Source of the DNA: Frankiales bacterium
GTDB taxonomy: Bacteria; Actinomycetota; Actinomycetes; S36-B12; CAIYMF01
Length of the DNA stretch: 64,000 nucleotides
Reading direction: 5' to 3'
Assembly (NCBI GenBank): GCA_016125335.1
Contig: WGLY01000026.1
Location: 1 to 64,000 of the forward strand
The notes beneath the pieces were generated by a model. That model ran no database searches. It worked only from the letters and a program-made list of their open reading frames with translations, and was not told where the DNA came from. The position numbers and the translations under genes are program-made. Shown here one piece after another: positions 19,201 through 38,163 of the stretch; the first letter of the stretch is position 1, and each line of letters opens with the position of its first letter.

Positions 19201-20985
19201 TCAGCGCACCCGGGCGCCGCGGCTCGACGCCGCGCCGGTCGCGTAGCCCGGCTTCACCGTGGTGACCACCAGCACGAGGGTCTTGCCACGCCACGCGGTG
19301 CCGATCCGCAGCGAGGAGCGGTGCGACACGACGTGGCCGTTGACCTTCCACGTGTAGGCGTAGCGGCTCGGCCGCGGCGACCACGAGCCGACCCGCGCCT
19401 TGACCGTGCGACCCACCAGCGCGTAGCCGCGGTAGAGCCCCAGGATCGAGGGCCGCACCGTGGCACGGGGCGCGGCGCCGAGGGCGACCTTGACCGCCGC
19501 GGACGACGCGCTCGCCGAGCCGGCCGGGTTGGTGGCGGTCACCGTGCAGGTGACCCGGTGCCCGGCGTAGCCGGCGGGCAGGGCCGCGGTGCGGGCCGTG
19601 GTGGCGAACGGCGTCGTCGCCGAGTCGAGGTACCACGCGTAGGAGTACGTGCCCGCGTAGGTCCACACGCCGGCCGTGCACGTGCTCGCCGCGCCCACGC
19701 GGGCACCGCCGACCGTCGGCGCCGACACGTCCGCCGGGGCGGCGAGCGTGATCGAGTACGCCGTGCCGGAGGCGGTCGAGCTGGCGTTGAAGCTCGCGTT
19801 GCCGGCGTAGTCGGCGGTCAGGGTGTGGTCGCCGATCGTGAGGGTGGACGCCGGGATGGTGACCACGGCCTCTCCGCTGCCGTCCAGGGTGCCGGTGCCC
19901 ACCTCGGTGCCGTCGGCCTTCACCGACACCGCGCCGGTGGGCGTGGTCGCGGGAGTGGTCGAGTCGGCCACGGTCACCGTGACGTGGATCGGCGTGCTGG
20001 TGTCCGCCGTCGCCGCCGGGTCGACCATGTCGATGCTGGTGGTCGTGTCGTCCGCGGGGACGGCGTCGACGCTGAACGAGGTAGCGGTGGAGGTGGACCC
20101 GCTGTAGGTCGTGGTGTCGGTCGGGGTGAACACCGCGGTGAACGAGTGCGAGCCCGAGGCCGGGGTGAACGACGCCGACGTCGCGCTGCCGGAGCCGTCG
20201 ACGGCCACGGCCGCGCCGAGGTCGGTCCCGCCGTCCTTGAACTGGATCGTCCCCGCCGGGTGGTCGGCGCCCGCGGAGGCGACCGAGGTCAGCGTGATCG
20301 CGGTGCCGGCCGCTGCGGGGCTCGTGACCGAGGGCACGGGCGCGGTCACCGAGGTGGCGGTCGCCGTGACGCTCGGCGTCGGGTAGATCTGCGTCCACTC
20401 ACCGGCGACCTGGTCGACGGCGATGGTGGCCGAGGAGTACCGCGTGGTGTCGATCGACTGGCCCGGGCCGGACGTGTACATGCGCAGCTGGTAGAGCCCC
20501 TGCCACGCCGCGTTCGCGTCGTTGTTGGGGTAGTAGAACGGGTGCCCGGCGCTCGGGTCGAACCAGAGGAAGGTGGTCGACACCGCGGCGTGTGTGTTCC
20601 CGGACAGTGCCCCGGGCAGCGTGGCCGGGTAGTCGTCGGAGGCCGAGATCTGCTCGCTGGCCCAGTTGTAGGAAGGGGCGGTGCTCGACGGCGTCACCGC
20701 GAACAGCGAGGCCTTGGTGTCGCCGCTGCGACCGGCGTCGGTGTCGGCCACGGCGAAGGCCGGCGGCGTCGCGAGCGGGCCGTGGGTCAGCACGTTCCCG
20801 CTCGCGTCGTAGAAGCTGATCGTGCCCTGCGTCGCCCCGTTGAGGGTGGTCGAGGCGGGCGGGTCGAAGGGCGAGGTCGCGGCCGCGCTCGCGGGCGTGG
20901 CGCCCGAGATCGCGACGGTGACGGCGACCGCGGCCGCCGTGGCGGCGGACGCGACCGTGGTTGCCCAGCGGCGACCATGTCTCAC
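19201..20985 (-). CDS. Secreted Ig-like repeat surface protein
   Basis: A protein of 594 residues. After the signal peptide come an N-terminal domain of about 170 residues (from NGATQGTISFYDASGNVLTH to VDQVAGEWTQIYP), then two or three Ig-like (Big_3-type) domains (PAGTIQFKDGGTDLG, then TPTGAVSVKADGTEVG). A C-terminal region is rich in Trp/Tyr/Arg (YAYTWKVNGHVV). No membrane anchor or LPXTG is present. The first 300 residues are strikingly similar to those of the protein at 23452. The start is a GTG at 20985 with AAGGAG upstream. A two-unit PHO-box-like repeat lies in front of the gene. Confidence 0.85.
   Translation of the reverse strand: MRHGRRWATTVASAATAAAVAVTVAISGATPASAAATSPFDPPASTTLNGATQGTISFYDASGNVLTHGPLATPPAFAVADTDAGRSGDTKASLFAVTPSSTAPSYNWASEQISASDDYPATLPGALSGNTHAAVSTTFLWFDPSAGHPFYYPNNDANAAWQGLYQLRMYTSGPGQSIDTTRYSSATIAVDQVAGEWTQIYPTPSVTATATSVTAPVPSVTSPAAAGTAITLTSVASAGADHPAGTIQFKDGGTDLGAAVAVDGSGSATSASFTPASGSHSFTAVFTPTDTTTYSGSTSTATSFSVDAVPADDTTTSIDMVDPAATADTSTPIHVTVTVADSTTPATTPTGAVSVKADGTEVGTGTLDGSGEAVVTIPASTLTIGDHTLTADYAGNASFNASSTASGTAYSITLAAPADVSAPTVGGARVGAASTCTAGVWTYAGTYSYAWYLDSATTPFATTARTAALPAGYAGHRVTCTVTATNPAGSASASSAAVKVALGAAPRATVRPSILGLYRGYALVGRTVKARVGSWSPRPSRYAYTWKVNGHVVSHRSSLRIGTAWRGKTLVLVVTTVKPGYATGAASSRGARVR
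20383..20888 (-). repeat. Duplicated coding segment, copy 1
   Basis: Encodes the N-terminal domain shared with the gene at 23452. DNA similarity to 24616-25108 is obvious by eye (for example the shared GTCGTTGTT-GGGTAGTAGAACGGGTG stretch). It extends more weakly into the first Ig domain. Confidence 0.75.
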
Positions 20986-21093
20986 GGGGACTCCTTGTCG
21001 AAGGACCGAGCGGCGCCGACGGCTCGGCACCAGCGCGCACCCTGCCGACCCGAGTCATCTGTCGCCGGAGTGCTGGGCGACGCTGTCGCGCAC

Positions 21094-21115
21094 AGTGCGT
21101 GAACGTCGGCTGAAC
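21094..21115 (-). promoter_or_regulatory. PHO box upstream of the Ig-repeat gene
   Basis: Two contiguous 11-nt direct repeats on the minus strand: GTTCAGCCGAC (21105-21115) then GTTCACGCACT (21094-21104). They match the PhoP direct-repeat type and are oriented with the gene starting at 20985. The element lies in the 144-nt gap between two genes, indicating a separate promoter. Confidence 0.7.
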
Positions 21116-21129
21116 GACCCCTGCCCGAG

Positions 21130-22083
21130 TCAGCCCCGAGGCGCCGAGTGACGCGGCGCGGCAGCGACGCGGCCCGCCGCGACGCGCTGGTAGCCGACGA
21201 GAGCGAGCGCGGCCAGGGCGCCGAGAGCCGCGAGGGCGATGCCGACCACCAGGGGCGTGCTCGATCCGGCGGACCCCGAGCCTCCCGTGCCGGAGACGGC
21301 GGCCACCGGCGAGGCGGGGTCGCCGGCCGCGGCGGCCGGGTCGGTCCCGCTCCCCGGCGCGGGCGAGTCGGACGAATCGGCGGCCGAGGACGCGTCGGCG
21401 CCTCCGGCCGAACCTGCGGACCCGTTGCGCGCGGCCGCCTGCTGGCTCTTCACCGCAGCGACCGACGCCGAGTAGCTCGGCAGCAGCGTCTCGGGCGAGG
21501 TCGCCTTGCCGACAGCGCACGGTGCCGTCCCCTGCGGGCCGGCCACCGTCCAGCGGTTGCCGTCCACGTGCAGGTTGACCGCGGCGTACACCTGTGAGGG
21601 GCCGATGCCGGGCGCGGAGTAGTAGAGACGGATCTGCACGTAGCCGTCCCACGAGGCCGGGAACTCCTTGAGGTACACGCTCAGCGGCAGGTCGATGGGG
21701 GTGGCCTGCGCCACCGCGTGGTCCGGGGACTCGTACGACGACGTGGCGGTGAGCGCGTCGCCGTTCCAGGACTCCGGGGCGACACCCTTGCGCGGCTGGG
21801 CGTACAGCAGGAAGGCGAGCCGGTCGCTGCCGTTCCAGGGCGCCGGCGGCGGGTTGGAGCTGACCGCCCGCCACACGAACGGCTGCGCGGTGACCGACCC
21901 GCTGGTGATCGGCTGCAGCTTGTCGTTGCACAGGGTCACGAGGCCGGCCGCGCCGGGATCGGTGTAGGGCACCGCACCGGAGGCGCCGGCGGCCCCCGCC
22001 GCGGGCCCGGTGACCAGCAGGCCGGCGAGGACGGCGGAGGCGAGGAGGGCGAGGCGGGAGCGGACGCTCGTCAGGGAGGGCAC
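21130..22083 (-). CDS. Secreted, C-terminally membrane-anchored protein with the shared N-domain
   Basis: A protein of 317 residues. It has a signal peptide (about 1-33), a single extracellular domain (about 40-205), an Ala/Ser/Gly linker, and a C-terminal membrane helix (STPLVVGIALAALGALAAL) with a basic tail. The extracellular domain is a distant relative of the N-terminal domain of the two Ig-repeat proteins: compare WDGYVQIRLYYSAPGIG here with WQGLYQLRMYTSGPGQS there, each followed by a YAA/YSSATIAVD-type strand. GTG start, AGGAG upstream. It follows the DUF916 gene by 9 nt and is surely cotranscribed with it. Confidence 0.78.
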   Translation of the reverse strand: MPSLTSVRSRLALLASAVLAGLLVTGPAAGAAGASGAVPYTDPGAAGLVTLCNDKLQPITSGSVTAQPFVWRAVSSNPPPAPWNGSDRLAFLLYAQPRKGVAPESWNGDALTATSSYESPDHAVAQATPIDLPLSVYLKEFPASWDGYVQIRLYYSAPGIGPSQVYAAVNLHVDGNRWTVAGPQGTAPCAVGKATSPETLLPSYSASVAAVKSQQAAARNGSAGSAGGADASSAADSSDSPAPGSGTDPAAAAGDPASPVAAVSGTGGSGSAGSSTPLVVGIALAALGALAALALVGYQRVAAGRVAAAPRHSAPRG

Positions 22084-22092
22084 GGGAGCTCC

Positions 22093-23289
22093 TCAGCTGG
22101 TGCGGGTGCGGGTACGGAGGTTGGCGGGCGCCTCGCGCCGGCCCCGGGGAGCAGCGGCCTCGCGGCGGCCGCGGGGGGCCTCGGTGCGGGCCCGGCGGCC
22201 GGTGGGCGGGCCCCCGCCGCCGCGGCGGCGCACCAGCCACACGGCCAGTCCGACGATCCCGGCCAGCACGAGCAGCAGGAGCAGCAGCAGGCTCCAGGGC
22301 ACGGCGAGCACGCTCGTCTCTCCCGACGCGTCGGACAGGCCCGGGGCCGAGTCGGTGGAGGTGAGCCTCGGGTGGGCGACAACCTTGACGCTCTCGCGGA
22401 ACTGCGGCCACACGCCGGGCACCACCACGGTCTGACGCACCTCGTTGCCCGGCAGGAGGATCCCGACGGAGCCCTCCGGGCCCTTCGCCGTCGCGCCGAG
22501 CAGGCCGGCCACGGTGGTGTCGACGACCGCGCCGAGCTTGACGTTGCCGGTGTTGCGCACGGTGTAGGTCACCGACATCGTCCCGGCGGCCAGCGGGTTG
22601 AGGCCGCCGTGGTACTCCGCGATGACGTCACTGACGGTCAGCTGCGGTGTGATCACCCCGCTCACCCGCAGGAACATCCGCGTGCCGACCCTCTGGTCGA
22701 GCTGGATGTTGGCTCCGCTCGCGTCCTTCCCGTTGGCCGAGAGCACGGCGAGCAGGAGCGCCGTGTGGTCGCCCGGCGAGGCGTCCGCGGGGACCGACAC
22801 GGTGAACGGCACGATCGTCTGGCCGGGGCCCTTCGCGGTGCGGGGCGGCACGGTCACCTTCGCCGCCGAGCGGGGCAGCGCCACCCACTTGCCGAGGTCG
22901 GTGTTCTGCTTGGTCAGGTCGAGGCCGGACAGGCCGCCCGCGTCGGTGTTGACCGCGTCGACGGCGATGAGCCGCACGGTGATGGGCTTGGCGCCGTAGT
23001 TGAGCACGGCGGCGTGGTCGCTGAGGCGCGCGCCGGCGGTGGCGCCGTAGGCGAACGACGGCTTGCCATCGGCGCCCTTCGCGCTGGCGGGAGCGACTCC
23101 GAAGGTCGCAACGTCGGGGTTCGGCGCGGCCGAGGACGCGGACGTTCCGCCCGACGTGCTCGGCGCCGGCGAGGGGGTGGAGGTGTCGGCCCGTGCCGCG
23201 GTGCCCGGGGCGAGCAGGGCGAGGGCCAGGCCGCCCAGCACGGCCGCGGCGAGGGCGCGGAACGGGGGGCGGGCGTCGGTGCGGGACAT
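22093..23289 (-). CDS. DUF916 (WxL-interacting type) membrane-anchored protein
   Basis: A protein of 398 residues with a signal peptide, an extracellular beta-sandwich region and a single C-terminal membrane helix (WSLLLLLLLVLAGIVGLAVWL). A very basic Arg-rich cytosolic tail follows. The pattern AAVLNYGAKPITVRLIAVDA, VPPRTAKGPGQTIVPFTV, VPADASPGDHTALLLAV and VTYTVRNTGNVKLG resembles DUF916. In Firmicutes this defines the WxL-interacting proteins that bind WxL proteins and peptidoglycan. The neighbouring WxL-like gene supports this. A GTTCACC unit lies about 40 nt upstream of the ATG. Confidence 0.75.
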   Translation of the reverse strand: MSRTDARPPFRALAAAVLGGLALALLAPGTAARADTSTPSPAPSTSGGTSASSAAPNPDVATFGVAPASAKGADGKPSFAYGATAGARLSDHAAVLNYGAKPITVRLIAVDAVNTDAGGLSGLDLTKQNTDLGKWVALPRSAAKVTVPPRTAKGPGQTIVPFTVSVPADASPGDHTALLLAVLSANGKDASGANIQLDQRVGTRMFLRVSGVITPQLTVSDVIAEYHGGLNPLAAGTMSVTYTVRNTGNVKLGAVVDTTVAGLLGATAKGPEGSVGILLPGNEVRQTVVVPGVWPQFRESVKVVAHPRLTSTDSAPGLSDASGETSVLAVPWSLLLLLLLVLAGIVGLAVWLVRRRGGGGPPTGRRARTEAPRGRREAAAPRGRREAPANLRTRTRTS

Positions 23290-23328
23290 GGGAGCACACC
23301 ACCGAGTGAAGACGACGGACAGGTTCCT

Positions 23329-23339
23329 GACGGGTGAAC
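23329..23339 (-). promoter_or_regulatory. Single PHO-box unit upstream of the DUF916 gene
   Basis: GTTCACCCGTC on the minus strand, identical to the 11-mers at 19055-19065 and 26667-26677. The adjacent units (AGGAACCTGTC, CGTCGTCTTCA) are poor matches, so this is a half-site candidate only. Confidence 0.4.
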
Positions 23340-23374
23340 GCCGGGCGACGCGGTGCGGACATTCCCCGGACGCG

Positions 23375-23409
23375 CGGAGGGGCGGGACGTCGCGCGTCCC
23401 GCCCCTCCG
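23375..23409. terminator. Hairpin terminator after the WxL-like gene
   Basis: A perfect 15-bp stem (CGGAGGGGCGGGACG with its complement) closes the loop TCGCG. It is 43 nt past the stop codon of the gene at 23452 and upstream of the DUF916 promoter, so it separates the two units. Confidence 0.8.
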
Positions 23410-23451
23410 CCGGGTCGCCGGCGAGGACGACCCGAGGTGCACTACGTGCGG

Positions 23452-25194
23452 TCAGGCGATGGTGAAGGTGACCGTGGCCTGGTACGTGCCGGCGACGGTC
23501 GACGTGGGCGCGACGAGGTTCATCGTGCCCCCGACCCCGACGGTGCCAGTGCCGTGCACGGCGCTGGCGAACTGGTGCGGGCCGCCGTTGAGGCCGTCAC
23601 CGAGCGACGCCGTGTCGCCCACCGCGTAGCCGTCCACGGTGTGGGTCGGCACGTCGTTGACGACGATCGGCTTGGTGGCGGCGTTGAGCGCGTTGCCGCT
23701 GTAGTAGTTCGCGACCACGGCGTCGAACGACAGGTTCGCCGAGTTAATGGCGTTCGTGCCGTCGCTGAAGTCGTTCGCCGTCACCGACGCCGTCCACGGC
23801 TGGTCACCGGCGCGGGTGTCGGTGATGGTGACGCCGTCGGCGGCGCTCGCGACGCGGCCGAAGTCGCCCGAGGCGGTGAGGCGCTTGCCGTCCGCCGAGA
23901 GCTGCATGGTGCCCAGGTCGAACGGGTTGCTCGGGCCCCACGGCGTGCTGATCGTGAGCGTTCCGGCAGCCACCGTCACCTGGATCGTCTGCGGGTCGGT
24001 GCAGGTGGTGCAGGACGGCGCGTCGTAGGTCGCGGACACCGCGGCGCTGGTCACCGCGGAGGTGCCGGAGCCGAAGACGGCCGTGAAGGAGTGCGCACCG
24101 GCGGCGAAGGTCGACAGCGTGATGCTGTACGGCGCCGCGCTCTTCGAGCCGATGGTCACGCCGTTGTCCTTGAACGTCACCGTGCCGGAGACCACGGACC
24201 CGGGCGGGGTGGTGGTGAGGGTGGCGGTGAGGGTCACCGGCTGGTAGGCCGGGCCGCTCACGACGTCGACGCCGAGGTCGACACCGCTGACGGTGGCCGC
24301 GGGGGTCACGTCGAAGGACAGCGCCGCCGACTCGGCCGAGGCCGTGTAGGAGGTGCTGGTCGGCGTGAACACCGCGGTGTAGAGGTGGTTGCCGTCGGTG
24401 GGCACGAAGCTGGCGCTCGTGGCCGCGCCGGAGGAGTCCACGGCCACCGGCGCGCCGAGGGCGGCGCCGTTGTCCTTGAACTGGATCGTGCCCGCGGGGT
24501 GGGTCGAATCAGCGGCCGTCGCCGTGGCCGACAGCGTGATCGAGGTGCCGTGGGCCGCGGGGCTGGCCACCGACGCGACCGGCGTGGTCACCGAGGTGCC
24601 GTAGACGGGTGCGGGGTACACCTGGGTCCACTCGCCCGCGACCTGGTCGACCGCGATCGTCGCCGAGGCGTACTGCGTGACGTCGATCGACTGGCCCGGG
24701 CCCGAGGTGAACATGCGCAGCTGGTAGAGGCCCTGCCACGCCGTGTTGGCGTCGTTGTTCGGGTAGTAGAACGGGTGGCCGGTGGCGGGGTCGAACCAGA
24801 GGAACGTGCTCGACACCGCGGCGTGGGTGTTGCCGGCCAGCGCGCCCGGCAGCGTCGCCGGGTAGGCGTCCGAGGCCGAGATCTGCTCGCTGGGCCACGA
24901 GGACGGCGGGGCCGTGCTCTGCGGCGTCACGGCGAAGAGCGACGCCAACGTGTCGCCGGGGCGGCCGGAGTAGGTGTCGGCGACCGCGTAGGCCGGCGGC
25001 GTGGCGAGCGGGCCGTGGGTGATCGGCGCGCCCGTGGAGTCGTAGAACGTGATGGTGCCCTGGGTGGCACCGTTGCCCGAGGGGTCGAACGGCGACGTCG
25101 CCGCCGCGCTCGCCGGGGAGGCCCCGACGAGGGCGAGCGCCCCGGCCGTCGCCAGGGCGAGCGCCCCGGCGACGGCCTTGCTGCGGATCTTCAT
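23452..25194 (-). CDS. Secreted Ig-like protein with WxL-like C-terminal domain
   Basis: A protein of 580 residues with a clear signal peptide (MKIRSKAVAGALALATAGAL). The shared N-domain spans about 35-190, and Ig-like domains follow (PAGTIQFKDNGAALG; GTVTFKDNGVTIG). From about residue 410 there is a C-terminal domain with LGTMQLSADGKRLTASGDFG, then VTITDTRAGDQPWTASVTAN and DFSDGT. That layout resembles the wall-binding WxL domain, but the motif reads WTA rather than WxL. No membrane anchor. It follows the PstS-like gene by 81 nt with no terminator between, so they are probably one unit. Confidence 0.78.
   Translation of the reverse strand: MKIRSKAVAGALALATAGALALVGASPASAAATSPFDPSGNGATQGTITFYDSTGAPITHGPLATPPAYAVADTYSGRPGDTLASLFAVTPQSTAPPSSWPSEQISASDAYPATLPGALAGNTHAAVSSTFLWFDPATGHPFYYPNNDANTAWQGLYQLRMFTSGPGQSIDVTQYASATIAVDQVAGEWTQVYPAPVYGTSVTTPVASVASPAAHGTSITLSATATAADSTHPAGTIQFKDNGAALGAPVAVDSSGAATSASFVPTDGNHLYTAVFTPTSTSYTASAESAALSFDVTPAATVSGVDLGVDVVSGPAYQPVTLTATLTTTPPGSVVSGTVTFKDNGVTIGSKSAAPYSITLSTFAAGAHSFTAVFGSGTSAVTSAAVSATYDAPSCTTCTDPQTIQVTVAAGTLTISTPWGPSNPFDLGTMQLSADGKRLTASGDFGRVASAADGVTITDTRAGDQPWTASVTANDFSDGTNAINSANLSFDAVVANYYSGNALNAATKPIVVNDVPTHTVDGYAVGDTASLGDGLNGGPHQFASAVHGTGTVGVGGTMNLVAPTSTVAGTYQATVTFTIA
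24616..25108 (-). repeat. Duplicated coding segment, copy 2
   Basis: Encodes the N-terminal domain of the WxL-like protein, homologous to 20383-20888. The duplication probably arose within this locus and was followed by divergence of the downstream domains. Confidence 0.75.
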
Positions 25195-25275: not shown

Positions 25276-26406
25276 CTACTTGGAGCCGTCGCAGGACGTG
25301 CCGGCCACGTTGGCCCGGCCGAGGTCCTGGAAGGCCGGCGTCTGCCCGGCGGCCGCGATGTTCGCGGCGTAGGCGGGGCTGCGCACCGCCGAGTTCGGGT
25401 TGGTGATGATGGCCTGGACGAAGTTGGAGGGCGACCCGGGCAGGTACGGGGTGGTGCTGGTGATGTCGTTCTGGCGCACCACGAGGTACAGGTTGCGCAC
25501 GTGCACGTAGCTGCCCGTGCCGGTGACCGCGACGACCTTGTTCTTCGCCGCAGCGCCGAAGAAGCCGCTGTTGTTCAGCCCGATGCGGCCGTTGGAGAAC
25601 GGCGCGATCGCGTTGGGGAGGCCGTCGAGGGCGGCGTAGTCGTTCTCCTGCACCTGGCGCACGGCCGGCCCATAGGTGCCGCCCCAGCCGGCCGCCGTGA
25701 GGTCGGCCTCGAAGGTGCTGCGCGTTCCCGAGCCGGGCTGCGGGATGAGCGGGTCGATCGTGGCGGTGGAGCCGCCGGAGTTGCCCGGGATCTGGTTCCA
25801 CGTGGTGTACGTGCCGTCGTAGATCTTCACCAGGTCGGCGATCGAGATCGTCGACGGGGCGTTGGTGACGGTCGCGGTCGCGGCCGTGAGGTTCTCGGTC
25901 GCGAACTTGTAGGTGTGCAGACCACCGAAGCCGGCCGCCGCGGCCCCGCCGTCCTCGAGCGTGCAGTAGGGCAGGCCCGACATGCGCGCGATGTTCTCCA
26001 TCGGCACGCCGGCGGTCGTGCCGCCGGAGAAGTACTGGGCGTTGAACAGAGCGCCGGCGCCACCGTGCGAGCCGTTGGGCCGGGGCACCGGACCGTTGCC
26101 GGCGCGCATCACGATGGTGGTCGCGAGCGGCGTGCCGTCCGCGTTGTACGTCGCGCGGCCGTTGGCGTCGCCGGTCGCGTCGAACGACATCATGCGGTTC
26201 GACTTGCTGACGTTGAACCCCGCTCCGCCGGACGGCGTGCCGTCGGCCACGAAGTCCAGCGTGTACTGGATCGTGTCGGAGCCGCCGAGCACGGCGTCAC
26301 CGGAGGTCGGGTACGGATCGGCCGTGGCCGGCCCGACCAGGCCGAGGGAGAGGGCCGTCGCGGCGAGCGTCGCGAGACCCAGGCTGACCTTGCTGACCTT
26401 GCGCAT
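25276..26406 (-). CDS. Secreted PstS-like periplasmic-binding-fold protein
   Basis: A protein of 376 residues with a Sec signal peptide (MRKVSKVSLGLATLAATALS, cleavage near ATADPY). The PBP-like fold shows GGSDTIQYTLDFVADG at the start, IADLVKIYDGTYTTWNQIPG in the middle (as in PstS, where it leads the second lobe) and IPQPGSGTRSTFEADL, a ligand-binding loop. There is no lipobox Cys and no C-terminal helix, so it is freely secreted or held by partners. The ligand may be phosphate or something else. A perfect two-unit PHO box precedes it. Confidence 0.82.
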   Translation of the reverse strand: MRKVSKVSLGLATLAATALSLGLVGPATADPYPTSGDAVLGGSDTIQYTLDFVADGTPSGGAGFNVSKSNRMMSFDATGDANGRATYNADGTPLATTIVMRAGNGPVPRPNGSHGGAGALFNAQYFSGGTTAGVPMENIARMSGLPYCTLEDGGAAAAGFGGLHTYKFATENLTAATATVTNAPSTISIADLVKIYDGTYTTWNQIPGNSGGSTATIDPLIPQPGSGTRSTFEADLTAAGWGGTYGPAVRQVQENDYAALDGLPNAIAPFSNGRIGLNNSGFFGAAAKNKVVAVTGTGSYVHVRNLYLVVRQNDITSTTPYLPGSPSNFVQAIITNPNSAVRSPAYAANIAAAGQTPAFQDLGRANVAGTSCDGSK

Positions 26407-26481
26407 GTGCTGTCCCCTTCCGGACAGGTGGGGTGGACGAACGGCGCGAGTCAATCGGCGTCAGGGGTACGGCCAGGGCGG

Positions 26482-26503
26482 CGCGGGTGAACTGTTCATG
26501 AAC
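26482..26503 (-). promoter_or_regulatory. PHO box upstream of the PstS-like gene
   Basis: Two contiguous 11-nt direct repeats on the minus strand: GTTCATGAACA (26493-26503) and GTTCACCCGCG (26482-26492). This is the best PhoP-type site in the window, 76-97 nt upstream of the ATG at 26406 and oriented with it. Confidence 0.78.
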
Positions 26504-26719
26504 CCATCCGGCCTAATCGGTGGCGCGACCGCCCCGCTGGGAATCCCTGTGCGTCAACGGGTTTCGGCCGAGGTCAGTGGCCGGTTCGCGCCGGACGTCG
26601 ACACTGCGTGAGCGGCCGCGGACACCGCGCTGACGACCTCGCCGCGGCGGTGCAGGGCAGGCGTACGACGGGTGAACGACAGGTTCACATGACGACGACG
26701 GGCAGGTTCCTCGGGAGAG
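26504..26719. other. Rest of the intergenic region, with extra GTTCAC units
   Basis: It lies between the end of the pst operon (26720) and the PHO box of the PstS-like gene. It holds GGTGAAC-GACAG-GTTCAC (26671-26688), a small inverted repeat whose minus-strand arm is GTTCACCCGTC (26667-26677). It may be a second PhoP contact or a weak hairpin. No gene and no strong terminator were seen. Confidence 0.45.
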
Positions 26720-27685
26720 TCAGGCCAGGTTCGGCACCAGCACCATGGCCGTGTTGGTGGTGCCCCACAGCACGGCGACCAGGATGGGCGTGGCGACCAG
26801 CCAGGTCTGCCGGCCGCCCCAGCGCACGGCGGCCCACGTGGTCGCCACGACGACGAGCGCGAGCGCCTGCACCCACAGCAGCAGCGGCACGAGCGCGGCG
26901 GGGTCGGTGCCCATCGCCTGGTCCGCGGCGGACACCTGCGCCGGACGCCCGCCCCCGCCGGCGGCGGGGTCGCCCTTGAGCGCGGCGTCGACGTAGACGA
27001 GCTGGTCGGGCAGCAGCGACTGCAGGCCCGGCCCGCTCTCCACGGACACCAGCGTGAGTCGTCCCGTGCCGGGCTCCAGCGGCGGCGGCAGCGGGTCGTT
27101 CGCCCGGCGCACGTCGCTCACGGTGAAGTGGAACTCGCCGAACCCGGTGACCACGTCGATGTCGTCGCCGGGGCGGAACCCCGAGATCCGGCCGAAGGGG
27201 GCGCCGTAGGTGACGCCCTTGCCGTAGAGAACGGCCACCCCGGCCTGTCCGGGCAGCACGGTGTCGGCGCGGTGCCCGGGCCCGTCGCGAAGGATCCCGG
27301 ACGACGTGCCCTCGACCACCACGAGGTTCTGCCAGCCCGCCGCCGGGGCGGTGAGCAGGGCAACCGGCGCGCCGGGGTCGATCGGCGCGCCCACGGGGAC
27401 CGTGGCCAGGGACAGCTCCTCGCGCATGGTGTCGTAGAGGCCGCGCTGCGCGCCGGCTGCCTGCAGCCCGGAGAGCACCGTCGCGAACAGCACGAGCCAC
27501 AGGCACAGCAGCCCGACGGCGGTGAGCACCCACGCCAGCAGGGCGCGCCCGGGTCCCAGAGGCCGGCGTGGGCCGCGCTCGCGCGGAGGGGCCGCCCGAC
27601 GGCGCGCGGCCCGGCCCGCAGGAGGCGCCGGCTGCGGGACCGGCAGCGCCGGGTCGTCCGGCCGCACGTCGACGAGTGTCATCAC
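26720..27685 (-). CDS. Sortase-fold membrane protein lacking catalytic residues
   Basis: A protein of 321 residues. It has a Pro/Arg-rich cytosolic N-terminus, a membrane helix (about 49-72), an extracellular domain (about 80-250) and two C-terminal membrane helices (about 265-312). The domain follows the class E/D sortase plan: LPGQAGVAVLYGK, YGAPFGRISGFRPGDDIDVVTGFGEFHFTV, then GRLTLVSVES. In active sortases these positions read GNxxxAGHR and LTLxTC. Here the catalytic His is replaced (YGK) and the Cys is missing (SVES). It is therefore predicted to be inactive, perhaps a binding module. It overlaps the preceding gene by 4 nt (ATGA). Confidence 0.75.
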   Translation of the reverse strand: MMTLVDVRPDDPALPVPQPAPPAGRAARRRAAPPRERGPRRPLGPGRALLAWVLTAVGLLCLWLVLFATVLSGLQAAGAQRGLYDTMREELSLATVPVGAPIDPGAPVALLTAPAAGWQNLVVVEGTSSGILRDGPGHRADTVLPGQAGVAVLYGKGVTYGAPFGRISGFRPGDDIDVVTGFGEFHFTVSDVRRANDPLPPPLEPGTGRLTLVSVESGPGLQSLLPDQLVYVDAALKGDPAAGGGGRPAQVSAADQAMGTDPAALVPLLLWVQALALVVVATTWAAVRWGGRQTWLVATPILVAVLWGTTNTAMVLVPNLA

Positions 27686-30465
27686 AGCCTCCCGCGCGGG
27701 CGCCAGGCGAGTGCGGGGCCCAGGAGCACGCAGGCGAGCCCGAGACCCAGCAGCACCGGCAGCAGCACCCCCACCGGCCCGATCGGCGACTCGGGCGTGG
27801 TGCCGAGCGACACCGGGGTCACGCTCGGGCTCGACGTGCTCGGCGACGGGGTGGGCGTCGGGCTCGGAGCCGCGCTCGCGGACGCGCTCGACCCGGTGTC
27901 CGGGGTGGTGGTCGGGTAGGTGACTCCTGACCCGGTGCCGCCGCTCTGTCCTGAGCTCGCCGTGGTCCGCGTGGGGGTCGGCCGGGGTGTGGGGGTCGGG
28001 GTCGGGGTCGGGTCGTGGCCGGTGACGCTGGGGACGGTGCCGTTCTGCGCGGCGACCGCGACGGCTGCCCGCGCGGTGTAGGCCGACAGCGCGCTCAACC
28101 CGTTGGCCGGGCTCAGCGGGAGGTAGCCGGCCGGCAGCTGTCCGGGGTCGGTCCCCGGGGTCTGGCCGGTGGTGGCGGCGAAGGTCATGAAGGCCGCGTA
28201 GGCGGCGGCGTCCGTGGCGGGCAGACCCGTGGTGGGCACCGACATCGACACGAGCATGGCGCCCGGGTAGGCGCCGGCACCGGCGGGGTCCGACGACATC
28301 CTCGTGCGCTGGAGGACCCAGGTGTGCGTGGTGTCGTCCGGGGCGAGGAACCCGGCAGCCGCCTTCAGCGCGGCGTCCGTGGGAGCCGCGAAGCTGCGTC
28401 CGGTCGCGTCGGTGAACCTCGTCGAGGAGGGCGTCACCCCGGAGGTCTGCAGCGATGCCGTGGCGAGGCGGTAGCGCTCGGCGTCGGCGAGGCTCGTGAT
28501 CCCGAGCACGAACCTCAGTCCGGGTGTCTGGCGCCCCTGTGCCACCAGCTTCACGGCCGAGAGGTTGGTCGAGTCGTTGGCGTTAGGGTTGGTGCACTTG
28601 AGCTGCGAGTTCGCGATGGAGAACTGCATGTTGAGGGTCACGTAGGCGAAGCGCAGCATCGGGGCGGCCACCTGCGGCAGGTACGGCACCGGTGCGTAGT
28701 AGAAGCAGGCGTTCTGGCCCCGGGTGAACGGGTAGACGTAGTCGTCGAGCAGCGGCCAGGTGCTCACCGGCAGCGCCATCCCCTTGTACGCCGGGTTCAC
28801 CGTCATCCCCCACGGGTCGGGCTCTCCGGCCATGAACGCGTGCGCCTCCGGGTCGGCGTCGATGTAGCTCGTCACCGCCGTCATGACGTCCGTCGAGCTG
28901 CTCACGGTGAGGATCGTCGAGGCCGCGGCGATGTTGAGGTCGGTGGGCACGTCGGGGTTGAGCGCCTGGAACTCCGGGTCGAAGGTGAGGTTGAGCGGGT
29001 TGTTCTTCAAGCCCTCGTCCGGCGGGATCCCGGCCGCCGGGTTGCCGTTCTTGACCCCCAGGTAGGACGGGTAGGACTCGGTGAGCAGCTTCGCGAGCAG
29101 CCGAGCGTTGAGGCGCAGGGACGTCAGCAGGCGTCCCTGCGCGTCGTCGATCGAGAAGGTGACGGCATAGCCGGTGAGCGCCACGGGGGCGTTCACCACC
29201 GGCCTGCTGTATCCCCCGGAGGGAAGGTTGCTGGCGAACGCCGCCTCGATGTTGCCCACCTTCAGCAGGTTCGCGGCCTGGGGCTCACCGGTCTGCACGT
29301 GCTGGAACGGCGTCTTCTTCGAGTCGAGGCAGAACGGAGGGGCCCACTGCAGGGTCGCCTGCGTCATGAGCTCCGAGCCGTAGATGGCGATGGGCGCCTT
29401 CCCGCCCACCACCGAGCACACGCTCGCCGACGGCGCGAAGTGCAGCGGCACGCTCACCCGGTTGCGCCAGTTCGACGCCGACCACCACAGCGAGCCGTTG
29501 ACCGCGGACGACGAGAGGTCGCCCTGGACGAACTGCGACCCGGGAGCGAAGTTGCCGTTGCTGGTGCAGGCTGCGTCGATGTCGGGCAGGTCGAGGGCGA
29601 GGGGACGGTCGGCCACGGGCAGGCCCGCGCCGGCCTCGTCGCAGGAGATGCCCACCACCGGCACGATCACGACGCTGCAGGCCACCGTGTCCGAGCAGCC
29701 GAGCGAGGCGTTGCTGTCGGCACTGCGGACGTTGAACAGGATCGAGCCCGTGCCGTCGGCCCCGGTGACCGCGAAGGTCTCGTTGCTCGGCAGGTTGGTG
29801 GCGGTCAGGTTCGACGTGGCCTCCGGGGGCATGCCGGCGCAGGCCGAGGACCCGCCGTAGTAGCGAGTGCCGCTCTCGGACACGAACGGCACCCAGCGCT
29901 CGGAGATCCCGATGTCCGTGCAGGCCGCCGGCCGCGGCGACGGCGCGCCGGCGAACTGCGTCCGCTCCTCGGCCGTGGCATAGCGGTCCATCCGCCACTC
30001 CGGGTAGGCGGTGGAGTAGTCGGCCTTGAAGCGCTCGGCCCACGACTGCGTCCAGCAGGTCTCCGGGCTCAGCTGCTGGGCGGCGGGCACGGTGCTGGAG
30101 TCGACGCCGCGGCACTCGAGGACCACCACGGGGTGCTCGATCACCACCGCGGCCGCGGAGTTCTGGTCCGCGACGATGCCCCCGCTCTGCGGCGCTCCGG
30201 TCCACGAGACCGGGACCGCCTGCCGGTCGCGCAGGCCGTGGGTGTCGCCGACGGTGACCGAGATGCTGTACGCCGTCGTGGCCACGTCGTTTCCGGCGGC
30301 GTCGAGGTGCGTGCGGGTGGCCGTGACGGTCTTCGTCGTCGACTGGCCGCCCGACGTCGCGGCCTCGGCCGGTGCCGTCTGCTCCCCGGGGATGCCGGCG
30401 GCCGCGCCCGAGGCGACGAGGGCGAGGGCCGCGGCGAGCGCGAGGAGCCGGGCGGGGGTCCTCAC
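27682..30465 (-). CDS. Large membrane-anchored surface protein in the pst operon
   Basis: A protein of 927 residues with a signal peptide (about 1-36) and a Cys-containing N-terminal region (about 40-430; several CxxD/Cys positions probably disulfide bonded). The central part (about 430-800) is followed by a Thr/Pro/Ser stalk and one C-terminal helix (VGVLLPVLLGLGLACVLLG) with a short basic end. The central segment has SLRLNARLLAKLLTESYPS and NPLNLTFDPEFQALNPD, a pattern I associate with large actinobacterial PstS-like binding proteins. That is a weak call. It is translationally coupled to pstS upstream and to the sortase-fold gene downstream (4-nt overlaps). Confidence 0.75.
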   Translation of the reverse strand: MRTPARLLALAAALALVASGAAAGIPGEQTAPAEAATSGGQSTTKTVTATRTHLDAAGNDVATTAYSISVTVGDTHGLRDRQAVPVSWTGAPQSGGIVADQNSAAAVVIEHPVVVLECRGVDSSTVPAAQQLSPETCWTQSWAERFKADYSTAYPEWRMDRYATAEERTQFAGAPSPRPAACTDIGISERWVPFVSESGTRYYGGSSACAGMPPEATSNLTATNLPSNETFAVTGADGTGSILFNVRSADSNASLGCSDTVACSVVIVPVVGISCDEAGAGLPVADRPLALDLPDIDAACTSNGNFAPGSQFVQGDLSSSAVNGSLWWSASNWRNRVSVPLHFAPSASVCSVVGGKAPIAIYGSELMTQATLQWAPPFCLDSKKTPFQHVQTGEPQAANLLKVGNIEAAFASNLPSGGYSRPVVNAPVALTGYAVTFSIDDAQGRLLTSLRLNARLLAKLLTESYPSYLGVKNGNPAAGIPPDEGLKNNPLNLTFDPEFQALNPDVPTDLNIAAASTILTVSSSTDVMTAVTSYIDADPEAHAFMAGEPDPWGMTVNPAYKGMALPVSTWPLLDDYVYPFTRGQNACFYYAPVPYLPQVAAPMLRFAYVTLNMQFSIANSQLKCTNPNANDSTNLSAVKLVAQGRQTPGLRFVLGITSLADAERYRLATASLQTSGVTPSSTRFTDATGRSFAAPTDAALKAAAGFLAPDDTTHTWVLQRTRMSSDPAGAGAYPGAMLVSMSVPTTGLPATDAAAYAAFMTFAATTGQTPGTDPGQLPAGYLPLSPANGLSALSAYTARAAVAVAAQNGTVPSVTGHDPTPTPTPTPRPTPTRTTASSGQSGGTGSGVTYPTTTPDTGSSASASAAPSPTPTPSPSTSSPSVTPVSLGTTPESPIGPVGVLLPVLLGLGLACVLLGPALAWRPRGRL

Positions 30466-32174
30466 GGCGCACCCCGTCGGGCGGTGAGCCGGCGGTGGAT
30501 CACCGGTGGCAGCACGATCACCGCGATCAGGCCCAGCGCCGTGAGCAGCGCGAACACGGGCACCGCGGAGGCGGTCTGGGTGGAGGAGCTCAAGGTGACC
30601 GCGACCGGCTCGGCCGCGCCCGCGCCACCGCCGCTCCCGCTACCGCCCGTCGCCGGGTCGACGACCTGCCCGGTGGCCGGGTCGATGCTGGGGGCCGCAC
30701 CCGGGTCCGTGCCGCCCGACGCCGGGGTGGTGGCGCCACCACCGCCCCCACCGCCACCGCCGCCGGCCGTGGCCCCCGTGCCGCCGCTCCCGCCGGACGA
30801 GCCGCCCGAGCTCGAGCCCCCGGACGACGAGCCGCTCCCCGAGCCGCTGCCGCCGGTGGACCCGCCCGGCTTGCCGTTGCTGCCCGGGTTCGCGGTGTTG
30901 GGGATCGAGTCCGTGCAGGGACCGGCCCCGACCTTGTCGCAGGCCTGCGGCATCGGCGCGATCTCGGCGAGGTAGTTGCGGTTGGGCTGGCCGGCGATGA
31001 ATGTCGGGTTGTTGCACGAGCTCACGTTGCGCTTGGTCAGGTCGACCCCGGGGTCGGCTGCCTTCAGCTTGGCCACCTGGTCGAACGAGGCCTGCACGAG
31101 GTTGATCGGCAGCGGCGAGTAGCCGAGCGGGCCGATCTCGCGCTGCCCCTGGCACAGCGAGTAGTACAGGTAGTCGGCAAGGGTCTGCCGCTTCGCCGTC
31201 GTCATGGTCTGGTCGTTCGACGCCGTCGGGATGATGCCGTAGGAGTAGGACGAGAGGGGGTAGGTCCGCTTGTCGGTGAACGTGTAGACCTGCTGGAGGT
31301 TCTGGAGCAGGTAGTTGGGCGAGGTCTTGTCCTGGTTGATGACGGCCTTGGTGAGCGCGACCGCGACGTTGTACTGGTCGGGCAGGGTGAAGTAGCCGGC
31401 CTTGTTGAGCACCTTGGCCACGGGGTAGTCCTGCGCGAGCGCGTAGGAGTACTCGTCGTAGCCGATCGCGCCGTTGCCGGCGGCCGAGGCGATGTAGTTG
31501 ATGACGCCGTCGGAGCCGTTCTGCGCGATGGCCTTCCCCTTGCGCGGGAAGTATTCGGTGAGCCCGCTGGTGCCGAGGAACGGTCGCCAGATGCTCGGGA
31601 ACTGCGAGTCGAGATAGGCGGTGAACTGCGCCGAGGAGCCCGAGCCCTCGGAGTGCACCACCGGGATGATCGGCAGCGACGGGAGCGCCTTTCCGTTGTT
31701 GTCCGCGGTGATGGCCGGGTCGTTCCAGTTCGTGATCTGGTTGGTGAAGATCTTTGCGAGGGTCTGGCCGGAGAGCCGCAGGTTGCGGACGAGCTTGCCG
31801 GCCACCCGGACCTGGTAAGGGAACGACGTGCCGCCCGCCACGATCGGGAGGTAGACGAAGTCGCGTCCCTGCGAGGTGTCCGTGTCGCCGGTGACCGGGT
31901 CGACCCCCTGGAATCCGATGTCGCTCACCGCGAAGTCGTTCTGCTTGTACCCGAAGTCCTTGCGGCCCTGCGCCGACCCGCTCGCGGTGAAGACCACCTG
32001 CAGGCCGTTGGGCTGGACGTCCGCGACCCACTGGTTGACCGCGTTGGCCGACCAGCTGGAGCCGGAGCCCTGGATGAGGGCGTGGCTGGCCGCCACTGCC
32101 GGCTGGGTTCCGATGGCCGTGACGACGAGAGCCGCCGCCACCAGGGCCAGTGCCTGGGCTCGAGTGCTGCGCAT
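30462..32174 (-). CDS. pstS: Phosphate-binding protein PstS with C-terminal membrane anchor
   Basis: A protein of 570 residues; typical PstS has 320-380. The binding domain (about 30-420) carries IQGSGSSWSANAVNQW, FAVSDIGFQG, LAKIFTNQITNWNDPAI and the phosphate loop HSEGSGSSAQFTAYL. The N-terminus is a Sec signal without lipobox Cys. A Gly/Ser-rich linker of about 90 residues (with a run of 10 Gly) and a C-terminal helix (VPVFALLTALGLIAVIVLP) with a basic tail follow. The protein is thus tethered at the opposite end from the usual lipoprotein. It is 63 nt after pstA, with AAGGA upstream of the ATG. Confidence 0.9.
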   Translation of the reverse strand: MRSTRAQALALVAAALVVTAIGTQPAVAASHALIQGSGSSWSANAVNQWVADVQPNGLQVVFTASGSAQGRKDFGYKQNDFAVSDIGFQGVDPVTGDTDTSQGRDFVYLPIVAGGTSFPYQVRVAGKLVRNLRLSGQTLAKIFTNQITNWNDPAITADNNGKALPSLPIIPVVHSEGSGSSAQFTAYLDSQFPSIWRPFLGTSGLTEYFPRKGKAIAQNGSDGVINYIASAAGNGAIGYDEYSYALAQDYPVAKVLNKAGYFTLPDQYNVAVALTKAVINQDKTSPNYLLQNLQQVYTFTDKRTYPLSSYSYGIIPTASNDQTMTTAKRQTLADYLYYSLCQGQREIGPLGYSPLPINLVQASFDQVAKLKAADPGVDLTKRNVSSCNNPTFIAGQPNRNYLAEIAPMPQACDKVGAGPCTDSIPNTANPGSNGKPGGSTGGSGSGSGSSSGGSSSGGSSGGSGGTGATAGGGGGGGGGGATTPASGGTDPGAAPSIDPATGQVVDPATGGSGSGGGAGAAEPVAVTLSSSTQTASAVPVFALLTALGLIAVIVLPPVIHRRLTARRGAP

Positions 32175-32237: not shown

Positions 32238-33413
32238 CTAGCGGCCCTGCTTGTCGCGGGCGAGCCAGCGGGTGAGGACGAACAGGAACGTCACGAGGAT
32301 CAGGAGCACCGTGGCGGCGCCGAAGCCGCGCTGGATGTAGAGGTCCTGGCCGCTGCGCACCGCGAAGAGGCTGAACAACGGCAACGAGTTCATCGGGTCC
32401 TGGAACGGGTTCACGTTGAGGAATGTCGAGGCGCCGGAGGTGATGAGCACCGGCGCGGTCTCGCCGATCGCCCGGGCGATGCCCAGGATCACGGCCGTCG
32501 CCAGTCCGGCCTTCGCCGTCGGCAGCACCACGCCGCGCACGGTGCGCCACTGGCTCGCGCCGAGCGCCAGGCTTGCCTCCCGCAGGCCGCCGGGAACCAC
32601 GCGCAGCTGCACCTCGGCGGATCGGGCGATGATCGGGGTCATCATCACGGTGAGGGCCATGGCCGCGGCGAACCCCGACCTGGGGACGCCCAGCGCCAGG
32701 ATGAGCGTGACGTAGATGAACAGGCCGGCGAGGATGTCCGGCAGCGCCGTCATCGCCTCCACCACCGTGCGGACGATCCGCGCGCCGGTGCTGCCGACCT
32801 CGGTCATGTAGACGGCGGTGCCGATGCCCAGCGGCAGCGCGATCACCACCGCGATCCCTACCTGGATCAGCGTGCCGACGACCGCGTGGAGGATCCCGCC
32901 GGCGGACAGCGGGTCGGTCGGCCGCACGCCTGCCATGTCCTCGGTGTAGAAGTTGGCGTTCAGCAGGGCCGGGATCCCCTTGATCACCGTGTAGACGAGC
33001 GTGGTGACGAGCGCGCCGAACACCACGAGCGCCCCGGCCGACACCACCGCCTCCATCAGCCGGTCCACGACGAGGGTCCTCGGCTGCGACAGCGCCGTCA
33101 CCCCGGCGTACATCGCCAGGAACGCGACGTACCAGACGATGCAGAAGCCGAGCACTCCCTGCAGCCCGAGCACGAGCGAGTAGAGCACCCAGGTGAGGCA
33201 GAGGGAGGCGACGCCGGACCCGAGGAAGCTGAGGATCTCGTCCGAGGTGCGCTTGCCGATGATGCGCGGCACGTCGGCCGCCCGCCGCCCGGGGCGCGGG
33301 GGGTCCGACGGCGGCGCCGGCGGCCCGGTCGGGCCGACGACGACGGGGACCTCGGCCGTGTCACCGATCGCCGGCGGCACCTGCACCTCGGCCTCGGGTC
33401 GCACTGCGGTCAT
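32238..33413 (-). CDS. pstA: Phosphate ABC transporter permease PstA
   Basis: A protein of 391 residues with an unusually long cytosolic N-terminus (about 80 residues, Pro-rich) before the six-helix permease core. The PstA signature includes the EAA loop (LREASLALGASQWRTVRGVVLPTAKAG) and ARAIGETAPVLITSG. It forms the membrane channel with PstC. The ATG is 9 nt after the pstC stop. The SLCLTWVLYSLVLG segment adds at least one extra N-terminal helix. Confidence 0.95.
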   Translation of the reverse strand: MTAVRPEAEVQVPPAIGDTAEVPVVVGPTGPPAPPSDPPRPGRRAADVPRIIGKRTSDEILSFLGSGVASLCLTWVLYSLVLGLQGVLGFCIVWYVAFLAMYAGVTALSQPRTLVVDRLMEAVVSAGALVVFGALVTTLVYTVIKGIPALLNANFYTEDMAGVRPTDPLSAGGILHAVVGTLIQVGIAVVIALPLGIGTAVYMTEVGSTGARIVRTVVEAMTALPDILAGLFIYVTLILALGVPRSGFAAAMALTVMMTPIIARSAEVQLRVVPGGLREASLALGASQWRTVRGVVLPTAKAGLATAVILGIARAIGETAPVLITSGASTFLNVNPFQDPMNSLPLFSLFAVRSGQDLYIQRGFGAATVLLILVTFLFVLTRWLARDKQGR

Positions 33414-33422
33414 CGTGGGCCC

Positions 33423-34448
33423 CTAGATGTCCGTGCCGGCGCCGCTGCGGCTCCGGTTGACGAAGACGGCGGCGATCGTGTTGACGACCAGGGTGATGAG
33501 GAACAGCACGAAGCCGGCGGTGAGCAGGGCCGAGAGCTGGTTCGAGGTCGCCTCGCCGAACAGTCCCGCGATGAGCGACGAGGTGGTGATCGTGCCGACC
33601 TCGAGAGGGCGGAACTTCAGGTCGAAGGCCGGGGAGATGATCAGCAGCACCGCGATGGTCTCGCCCAGCGCACGGCCCAGCGCGAGCATCGTGCCGCCGA
33701 TGATGCCTCCGCGCCCGAAGGGCAGCACCACGGAGCGCACAACGCCCCAGCGGGTCCCCCCGAGCGCCAGGACCGCCTCGCGCTCCCCCGGCGGGGCCTG
33801 CACGAACACGCCGCGCATCACCGCCGTCGCCAGCGGGATCACCATCATCGAGACGCACAGGCCGGCGATGAAGGCGGAGGAGGTGAAGCTCGACTGCCAG
33901 TTCGCCGCGAGGTCCGGGTCGACGTCGACTCGGAAGATGGGGATCCACCCGAGGTACTGGTTGATCCACCGGGCGACGTAGATGGCATACGGCTGCAGCA
34001 GGAAGAAGCCCCAGAGCCCGTAGATGATGCTCGGCACAGCGGCCATCAGGTCGATGGCCGAGACCAGGAACGACCTGATCCGCAGCGGTGCGTACTCGCT
34101 GATGTAGAGCGCGGTGAGCAGCGCGAGGGGAAACGACACCACGATCGCGACGAGGGCGACCTCGATGGTGCCGAGGATCACCGCGGAGATGCCGATCTGG
34201 TCGATCCGCGGCTGCCACTCGTTCTCGGTGAGGAACGACAGGCCGTAGCGCTGGAAGGTGGGGATCGACTGGTAGCCGAGGAAGACGCCGATGGCGCCGA
34301 AGATCACCAGGACGGTGATGCCGATGCTGCGCGCCGTCCAGTGGAAGGCGCGGTCCGGGCCGGACGGCCTGCGGTCGATCGGGCGAGGGGCGTCGCCCGA
34401 CGGGTCCGCGGCCGGCTCGACGGGCTCGAGGACGGCCTGGTGGCTCAT
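33423..34448 (-). CDS. pstC: Phosphate ABC transporter permease PstC
   Basis: A permease of 341 residues. Typical PstC features are the extracellular [15 protein letters not shown] loop, [22 protein letters not shown], and the EAA loop [23 protein letters not shown] followed by [13 protein letters not shown]. It pairs with PstA and the ATPase PstB to import phosphate. Its ATG overlaps the pstB stop (ATGA). Confidence 0.96.
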
Positions 34449-35272
34449 CCGAACCGTCCGTGGACGTAGTCGCTGGTCCGCGGGTCCTGCGGGTTCCCGA
34501 AGATGTCGTCCGTCCGCCCCGCCTCGACGATGACGCCCGGGGTCCCCTGCTCCGCCAGGAAGAACGCGCACTGCTGCGACACCCGCGCGGCCTGCTGCAT
34601 GTTGTGCGTGACGATGACGATGGTGACCTCGTCCTTGAGCTCGAGGATGGTCTCCTCGATGCGCCGGGTGGACGTGGGGTCCAGCGCGCTGCACGGCTCG
34701 TCCATCAGCAGCACCTCGGAGTCCACGGCCAGCGAGCGGGCGATGCACAGCCGCTGCTGCTGCCCGCCGGAGAGCGCGCTGCCCGGCTGCTTCAGCCGGT
34801 CCTTGACCTCGGCCCAGAGCCCGGCGCGCACCAGGCACCGCTCGATGAGGTCGTCGCGGTCGGCGCGCCCCACCTTGGTGCCGGTGAGCTTGAGACCCGC
34901 GGTCACGTTGTCCGCGATCGACATCGCAGGGAACGGGTTGGGCTTCTGGAACACCATCCCGATCCGCTTGCGGGTGTCGGTGATCCGGTTGCCGGCGTCG
35001 TAGATGTCGACACCGTCGAGGAGCACCTGACCGGACATCTGCGCGGAGGGCACGAGCTCGTGCATCCGGTTGAGGATGCGCAGGAAGGTGGACTTGCCGC
35101 AGCCGGAGGGACCGATCAGGGCCGTCACCGTCTGCGCCGGCATGGGCAGCGAGACCTGGTCGAGCACCTTGCGCTCGCCGAACCAGGCGGACACGCGGCG
35201 TGCGTCGAGGCTCGACCCGGCCACCACGCGCGGCGCCGGCCCCGGTCCGGACTCGATGGTGATGGTGCTCAC
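34445..35272 (-). CDS. pstB: Phosphate ABC transporter ATP-binding protein PstB
   Basis: An ATPase of 275 residues with Walker [22 protein letters not shown]-loop [12 protein letters not shown], signature [15 protein letters not shown], Walker [14 protein letters not shown] and the switch His in [12 protein letters not shown]. All are diagnostic for PstB. GTG start at 35272, overlapping the stop of the upstream DUF1508 gene (GTGA). The gene order B-C-A-S is the reverse of the usual pstSCAB. Confidence 0.96.
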
Positions 35273-35754
35273 GAGGCGCCTCCGTAGTGGACGACGGGCA
35301 GCGCCGACTCGTCGAGGGCGACGTCGGCGCCGGGGCGGAGCGTGGTGACGGCCTCCCAGCCATGGCTCGCCCGCCACCGGCCGAGGGCGTCGGGCACGGT
35401 GGCCAGGAACTGGTGCAGGGCGTGGCGCGCGTCGCGCTCGTGCGCCAGGACGCGGACCGATGCGGCGAGCACCTCGCCCTCGGAGACGATCTGCCACCGC
35501 CAGCCGAAGCCGTCGGCCACGGGCACGACGCCCGCGACGCTCCCCTCGAGGGCAGCGGCGAGCCGGAGCAGCGCCTGCTCGCACGAGGCCGCGTCCGGGT
35601 AGGTCTCCGGGCTCCGGCCGAGCTCGCGGTTGTTGGCGCCGAGCAGCCGCCACAGGACCGGTCCGGTCGCCTCGGAGGCGCGTACCCATTCGGTGACGCC
35701 CGAGTCCGGGTCCGGGACCCGGGCCGGGACGAGCTGGAACCGAGGGGTCGCCAC
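35269..35754 (-). CDS. DUF1508/YegP-like protein, first gene of the pst operon
   Basis: A protein of 161 residues with two repeats of the YegP/DUF1508 fold. The first contains [29 protein letters not shown], the second [17 protein letters not shown] with a following helix. No signal peptide, so probably cytosolic; the function of the family is unknown. The GTG at 35754 is preceded by GGAAGGAC. It heads the operon, coupled to pstB by overlap, an unusual place for this family. Confidence 0.7.
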
Positions 35755-38155: not shown

Positions 38156-38163
38156 GGCCCGTC

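Follow-up and report, generated by a model that had tools for sequence, protein, structure and literature searches.

A variant phosphate-transport (pst) locus in the window, the whole 64,000-nucleotide stretch of Frankiales DNA analysed here, encodes a sortase-like protein that possesses none of the three catalytic residues of sortases, and this pseudo-sortase belongs to a phylum-wide family that is very probably dedicated to variant Pst loci of this kind. The genes of the locus lie on the minus strand in the order pstB - pstC - pstA - pstS - 927-residue surface protein - pseudo-sortase (Table 1). The host genome amounts to 3.93 Mb in 41 contigs, and the G+C content of the window is 74%. The pseudo-sortase is composed of an N-terminal membrane helix, a class E-like sortase domain and two C-terminal membrane helices. 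It is the terminal gene of an overlapping run, in agreement with its first-pass placement at the end of the pst operon, but a binding-protein gene on the same strand follows about 0.3 kb further on. Its junction with the gene of the 927-residue protein, described at first as an ATGA overlap, reads TGATG with an ATG start or GTGA with a GTG start.

Table 1. Features of the variant pst locus and its flank in the window
Feature	Position	Strand	Remarks
PstB ATPase	34445..35269 (start approximate)	minus	TIGR00972, 335-337 bits, just below the cut-off of 343.2
PstC permease	33423..34400	minus	TIGR02138, 243.2 bits, above the cut-off of 196.45
PstA permease	32238..33413	minus	TIGR00974, 208.1 bits, above the cut-off of 193.45
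Variant PstS with C-terminal membrane anchor	30462..32174	minus	174.6 bits, below the cut-off of 205
927-residue surface protein	27682..30465	minus	degenerate PstS-like domain (about 361-804) and C-terminal membrane anchor
Pseudo-sortase	26720..27682	minus	320 aa from ATG; no catalytic His, Cys or Arg
PHO-box-like direct repeats	26660..26688	minus	GTGAACCTGTC GTTCACCCGTC GTACGCC; between pseudo-sortase and third binding protein
Second PHO-box-like repeat	26486..26503	minus	
Third PstS-type binding protein (PBP_like_2), secreted	25276..26406	minus	ORF 25276-26454, likely ATG at 26406

Sortases are known as cysteine transpeptidases, and the 320-residue protein is, on the evidence of sequence profiles, a sortase domain. 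The Pfam Sortase model (PF04203) matches it with E=1.1e-9 and 38.6 bits, above the cut-off of 26.6, and 30 of 30 diverse members of the pseudo-sortase family match the same model at E<=0.001. The NCBIfam model class_E_sortase (NF033747) gives E=2.2e-14 and 53.8 bits, below its cut-off of 160 bits; two pseudo-sortase relatives also stay below it, with 76.6 and 60.9 bits. The nearest solved chains are the sortases 5go6 (about 4e-9) and 5go5 (about 5e-9), which are reached at 7.4e-20 or better by a ten-member pseudo-sortase profile, and a pseudo-sortase profile compared with the solved sortases 5go6, 5go5, 5uus and 4d70 gives E<=6.3e-19. Profile-profile comparison of pseudo-sortases with nine active sortases yields 100% and E=4e-45, in an alignment that covers most of the length, C-terminal helices included. 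The class E layout proposed in the first-pass annotation is borne out, with the segments YGAPFGRISGFRPGDDIDV and RLTLVSVES both present, as are the two extra C-terminal helices, which are evident in the hydropathy by which, rather than by a dedicated predictor, membrane helices were called. The fold assignment rests on the profiles because the structure model is of low confidence: prediction for the window protein and the core of L031, an active sortase, gave a pLDDT of 48 and a pTM of 0.29, too low to use. In the low-confidence model of the window protein, helices span residues 261-288 and 291-319.

At the catalytic sites, alignments place K155 at the position of His and V214 at that of Cys, as the initial description of lost His and Cys had it, and the third site is changed as well, to L228 in place of Arg. 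The sole Cys of the protein, C60, lies inside the first membrane helix, and its two His residues are H185 and H137, the latter being the His of the GPGH block, conserved in active sortases too. Relatives were sought in 60 relatives, 166 genomes of the order, 296 of the class and 296 of the phylum, where full-length pseudo-sortases score above ordinary sortases. The 72 rows considered comprise 59 sequences, the window's included, from which near-duplicates and one truncated row were removed, and 13 copies fetched later; L010, which is truncated before the Cys site, is left out of the pseudo-sortase set, and L042, a mere contig-edge fragment of a pseudo-sortase gene, is not counted. The His site is occupied by Arg in 67 rows and Lys in 5, and by His in none of the 72. 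The Cys site is occupied by Ala (38), Ser (26), Gly (5), Thr (2) or Val (1), again with no Cys in 72 rows, and the Arg site contains a single Arg (L106) and a single Lys (L067). The designation as pseudo-sortase thus stands and extends across the phylum, and the conservation of the His and Cys loss among homologues, which the first-pass annotation had left to be checked, holds in 72 of 72 rows.

All three residues are kept in 35 of 35 comparison sortases, which, having been retrieved by searching with a pseudo-sortase sequence or profile, are near relatives; L115, L118, L120 and L127, whose domains are partial, split or badly aligned, were omitted from this set. Among the 35 is the other sortase of the window's own genome (L001), which reads H, C, R. 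One protein (L107) falls within the pseudo-sortase score range but has all three catalytic residues; it falls among the active sortases, with which it was counted. Positions E124, Q146, G182 and A233 are more conserved in pseudo-sortases than in active sortases. These rows show no drift at the His site, where a basic residue is invariably present, which is more telling than the loss itself. Displacement of the catalytic His and Cys to other positions was ruled out, as there is no conserved Cys and the only conserved His is that of GPGH, common to active sortases; the agreement of the family rows likewise excludes an accident of one genome or a sequencing error. No relatives were found in the viral contigs searched, and plasmid records contained only two weak partial matches (Nonomuraea gerenzanensis and Acetoanaerobium noterae), a second search of them giving none. 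A single-protein scan of genome contigs found only L031, the active sortase, from an Ilumatobacter MAG.

Genes of the variant pst cluster occur near the pseudo-sortase in 45 of 46 neighbourhoods, and PstB, PstA/C or PstS itself in 42 of them; the exception (L145) is at a contig edge. Among the further pseudo-sortase copies, 10 of 13 adjoin genes of a Pst-type system, the remaining three having little flank (about 1 kb each in L181 and L188, 3.4 kb in L183), and second copies within the same genomes are also located in pst clusters. Gene order varies: in the group to which the window belongs, the pseudo-sortase comes after the gene of the 927-type protein, and in many lineages (for example L133, L136, L137, L143, L147, L153, L164 and L165) it immediately precedes pstB. 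In the 296 genomes of the class, the pseudo-sortase is found in 39, picked by hand at about 164 bits or more, the 927-type protein in 39, and both in 36 (Fisher p=3e-39, kinship ignored). Genomes with the 927-type protein and no full pseudo-sortase match are G054, G228 and G230, the first of which carries a pseudo-sortase fragment at a contig end; those with a pseudo-sortase and no 927-type protein are G022, G179 and G222. A constant association with PstS and the large surface protein, as raised in the first-pass annotation, is thus largely borne out, with genes of the system in 45 of 46 neighbourhoods and with 36 genomes sharing both proteins against 39 for each.

The 927-residue protein is, by profile comparison, a degenerate membrane-anchored PstS-like binding protein. 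No Pfam model matches it, and its N-terminal third has no match to known families in the searches made. Its C-terminal half is related to PstS in profile-profile comparison (98.9%, E=1.6e-17), and its best solved matches are PstS chains. Where typical PstS has the phosphate loop RSDGSGT, the aligned segment of the 927-residue protein is SSSTDVM. Terminal membrane helices are present in 42 of 44 PstS proteins of pseudo-sortase loci and in 38 of 39 proteins of the 927 type; a tail helix is found in none of 45 third binding proteins. Partners of the LPXTG type, which the first-pass annotation had envisaged, are not borne out, since LPxTG- or LAxTG-like motifs occur in 0 of 44 PstS and 0 of 39 927-type proteins; covalent anchoring of the direct partners through LPxTG was rejected for this lack of a motif. 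LAQTG, a signal of the class E type, is found in 4 of 29 members of one associated family of Ig-type, tail-anchored proteins (L133, L136, L137 and L143, in four other genomes), each encoded in one cluster with a pseudo-sortase.

Like the PstSCAB transporter, the window locus has PstA and PstC above their cut-offs, PstB just under its own, and a binding protein of the PstS family. Unlike PstSCAB, its PstS is tail-anchored and below the curated cut-off, and the locus adds a degenerate binding protein, a third binding protein and the pseudo-sortase. A separate canonical pst set exists in the window's genome (L168 and L171), with a lipoprotein-like PstS of motif RSDSSGT. Positions 19201-25194 of the window encode a series of surface proteins with Ig repeats (Big_3_5), tail-anchored partners and a weak WxL match, and such a run adjoins the pst cluster in many relatives. 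One of its ORFs, 23452-25194, downstream of the pseudo-sortase, may be related to WxL-type surface proteins, as it combines Big_3_5 repeats with the weak match to WxL (E=0.00075, which is under the cut-off).

In the window PstS, the phosphate-site motif RSDGSGT reads HSEGSGS, and in its closest relatives HSEGSG[STA] or HAEGSGS, with QSEGSGA in L154. The Arg of this motif, which we take to be a phosphate-binding residue, is replaced by His in the window and close relatives; most of the other lineages retain it. The window PstS may have acquired a different substrate or affinity. Because Arg is retained in most lineages and has become His here, phosphate is a likely substrate for the family as a whole and a possible one for the window's member.

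Control by phosphate, also proposed initially, is at most suggested. Putative PHO-box-like repeats are present in the locus, but the strongest lie downstream of the pseudo-sortase, and the start of the pst run has no good example. Spaced PHO-like repeats are commoner than expected (18 vs 4.8). The exact 11-mer GTTCACCCGTC, which was picked after the repeats had been seen, occurs three times on the minus strand (19055, 23329 and 26667) against 0.07 expected, and with one mismatch allowed 3 times against 2.0 expected. Scores in a PHO-box weight scan did not exceed those of its own shuffles.

Class E sortases such as SrtE1 of Streptomyces coelicolor (PDB 5cuw) and SrtE of Actinoplanes missouriensis share with the pseudo-sortase the sortase domain, the N-terminal membrane helix and the blocks around GPGH and G-[HR]-x-x-x-[FY]-G-x-P-F. 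Unlike them, the pseudo-sortase is devoid of the catalytic His, Cys and Arg, carries two C-terminal helices and is fixed in pst clusters. The signals on which class E sortases act are of the LAXTG type (PMC5148588). In A. missouriensis, the five sortases tested, one of class E (792 aa) and four of class F (184-273 aa), are encoded at separate loci, and the accessible text of that study does not describe the pseudo-sortase family (PMC13251363). No pseudo-sortase family and no sortase in a pst operon was found in a search of a literature collection with a minority of subscription papers and no bioRxiv preprints; one paper, as far as its available part goes, concerns phosphate-solubilizing Cutibacterium (PMC9723661). 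Searches of two curated family libraries, Pfam and NCBIfam, showed no dedicated model for the family, and an annotation as sortase drawn from a domain match alone can be wrong.

The closest active relatives are class E-like sortases that also possess two C-terminal helices (L031, L107, L111, L123, L116 and others), in the same helix layout ending LLP. They keep His, Cys and Arg, and pst genes are found in none of six of their neighbourhoods. Two (L160 and L161) of the four active-sister neighbourhoods listed contain genes that we presume, from resemblance, to be cytochrome c maturation genes. The C-terminal helix pair is seen by hydropathy in 67 of the 72 pseudo-sortase rows; 10 of the 35 active sortases have C-terminal helices, nine with two and one scored with three. 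In a tree of the domain with the catalytic columns removed and all 35 comparison sortases included, pseudo-sortases and active sortases are split by one change, with weak support (SH-aLRT 70). In a second tree, containing the helix columns, again without the catalytic columns, and limited to the ten active sortases with C-terminal helices (L008 left out), the same split receives SH-aLRT 94. The deepest pseudo-sortase row of the domain tree, L106, retains the Arg and has neither His nor Cys; it is located in a pst cluster (neighbourhood L158) and is a possible evolutionary intermediate. From these trees, an active three-helix sortase of class E type, already equipped with the two C-terminal helices, would have lost its catalytic residues once, probably in an ancient actinobacterium, and the dead sortase would then have been co-opted as a membrane component without enzymatic activity, dedicated to a variant, second and surface-anchored Pst system.

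For the function of that component, the best reading is non-covalent docking of tail-anchored binding proteins, to which we give an even chance; the first-pass proposal that the protein binds or positions surface proteins is plausible in this light. The pseudo-sortase would be a membrane protein whose sortase barrel faces outwards, and would help to dock or assemble those PstS-type proteins whose C-terminus consists of a membrane helix and a basic tail, keeping them close to or at the PstCA permease rather than cutting them or attaching them to the wall. A sortase that does not cut is proposed as receptor because the partner tails resemble a sorting signal without the cleavage motif; as a tail helix is missing from the third binding protein, not all partners could dock in this way. 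A more specific and tentative form of the docking reading, which we regard as somewhat doubtful, describes a surface phosphate-uptake machine of actinobacteria built partly from two dead proteins, the pseudo-sortase, with its former His as an Arg/Lys receptor site, and the 927-type pseudo-PstS; the pseudo-sortase would read the membrane tails of PstS-type proteins in sortase fashion and retain these proteins non-covalently at the permease.

The main rival to docking, rather unlikely in our estimation, is an auxiliary transporter subunit whose three helices pack on PstCA, with the barrel as an outer dock or gate part and no sorting of tails. Since the pseudo-sortase gene stands directly before pstB in many lineages, a permease subunit fits that arrangement equally well, and genomes with two such clusters have a pseudo-sortase of their own in each. 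Yet in the window's group the gene adjoins that of the 927-residue protein and not the permease, and to our knowledge canonical Pst systems, one of which the window's genome encodes, function without any pseudo-sortase. A sensor, in which an anion, phosphate for instance, would bind to the basic residue in the old active site and the helices would relay the signal, would account for the Arg or Lys in 72 of 72 rows within a phosphate-type locus; it is improbable, as a cytoplasmic signalling domain is not seen in the pseudo-sortase and the basic residue could as well bind the acidic end of a peptide.

Highly improbable is an enzyme still at work with a displaced or different nucleophile. The 26 Ser residues at the Cys site would suit it, but Ala, Gly, Thr and Val make up the other 46 rows, no Cys is conserved, and the sole conserved His is shared with active sortases. 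The loss of every catalytic residue might equally be read as the decay of a sortase pseudogene. Neutral decay is rejected, and we give it practically no credence: by hand count, open frames and conserved positions are shared by about 14 families within the class and by at least four that belong to other classes, and the linkage to pst is kept over deep divergence. Should a transporter-linked pseudo-sortase across the phylum be confirmed, it would show that a sortase fold is able to act as a receptor, and would point to an overlooked type of actinobacterial Pst system whose binding proteins include anchored and degenerate ones. If the docking reading, with retention by tails, holds, the protein would represent a novel type of transporter accessory, and the sortase fold would have gained a new function.

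On the other side of the pst cluster, a conserved ORF (35269-36303) lies directly upstream of pstB and is found in the clusters of several relatives. Beyond it, a divergent gene pair at 36302-39456, which presumably belongs to the DUF1800/DUF1501 families, encodes products with Tat-like signals and faces away from the pst cluster.
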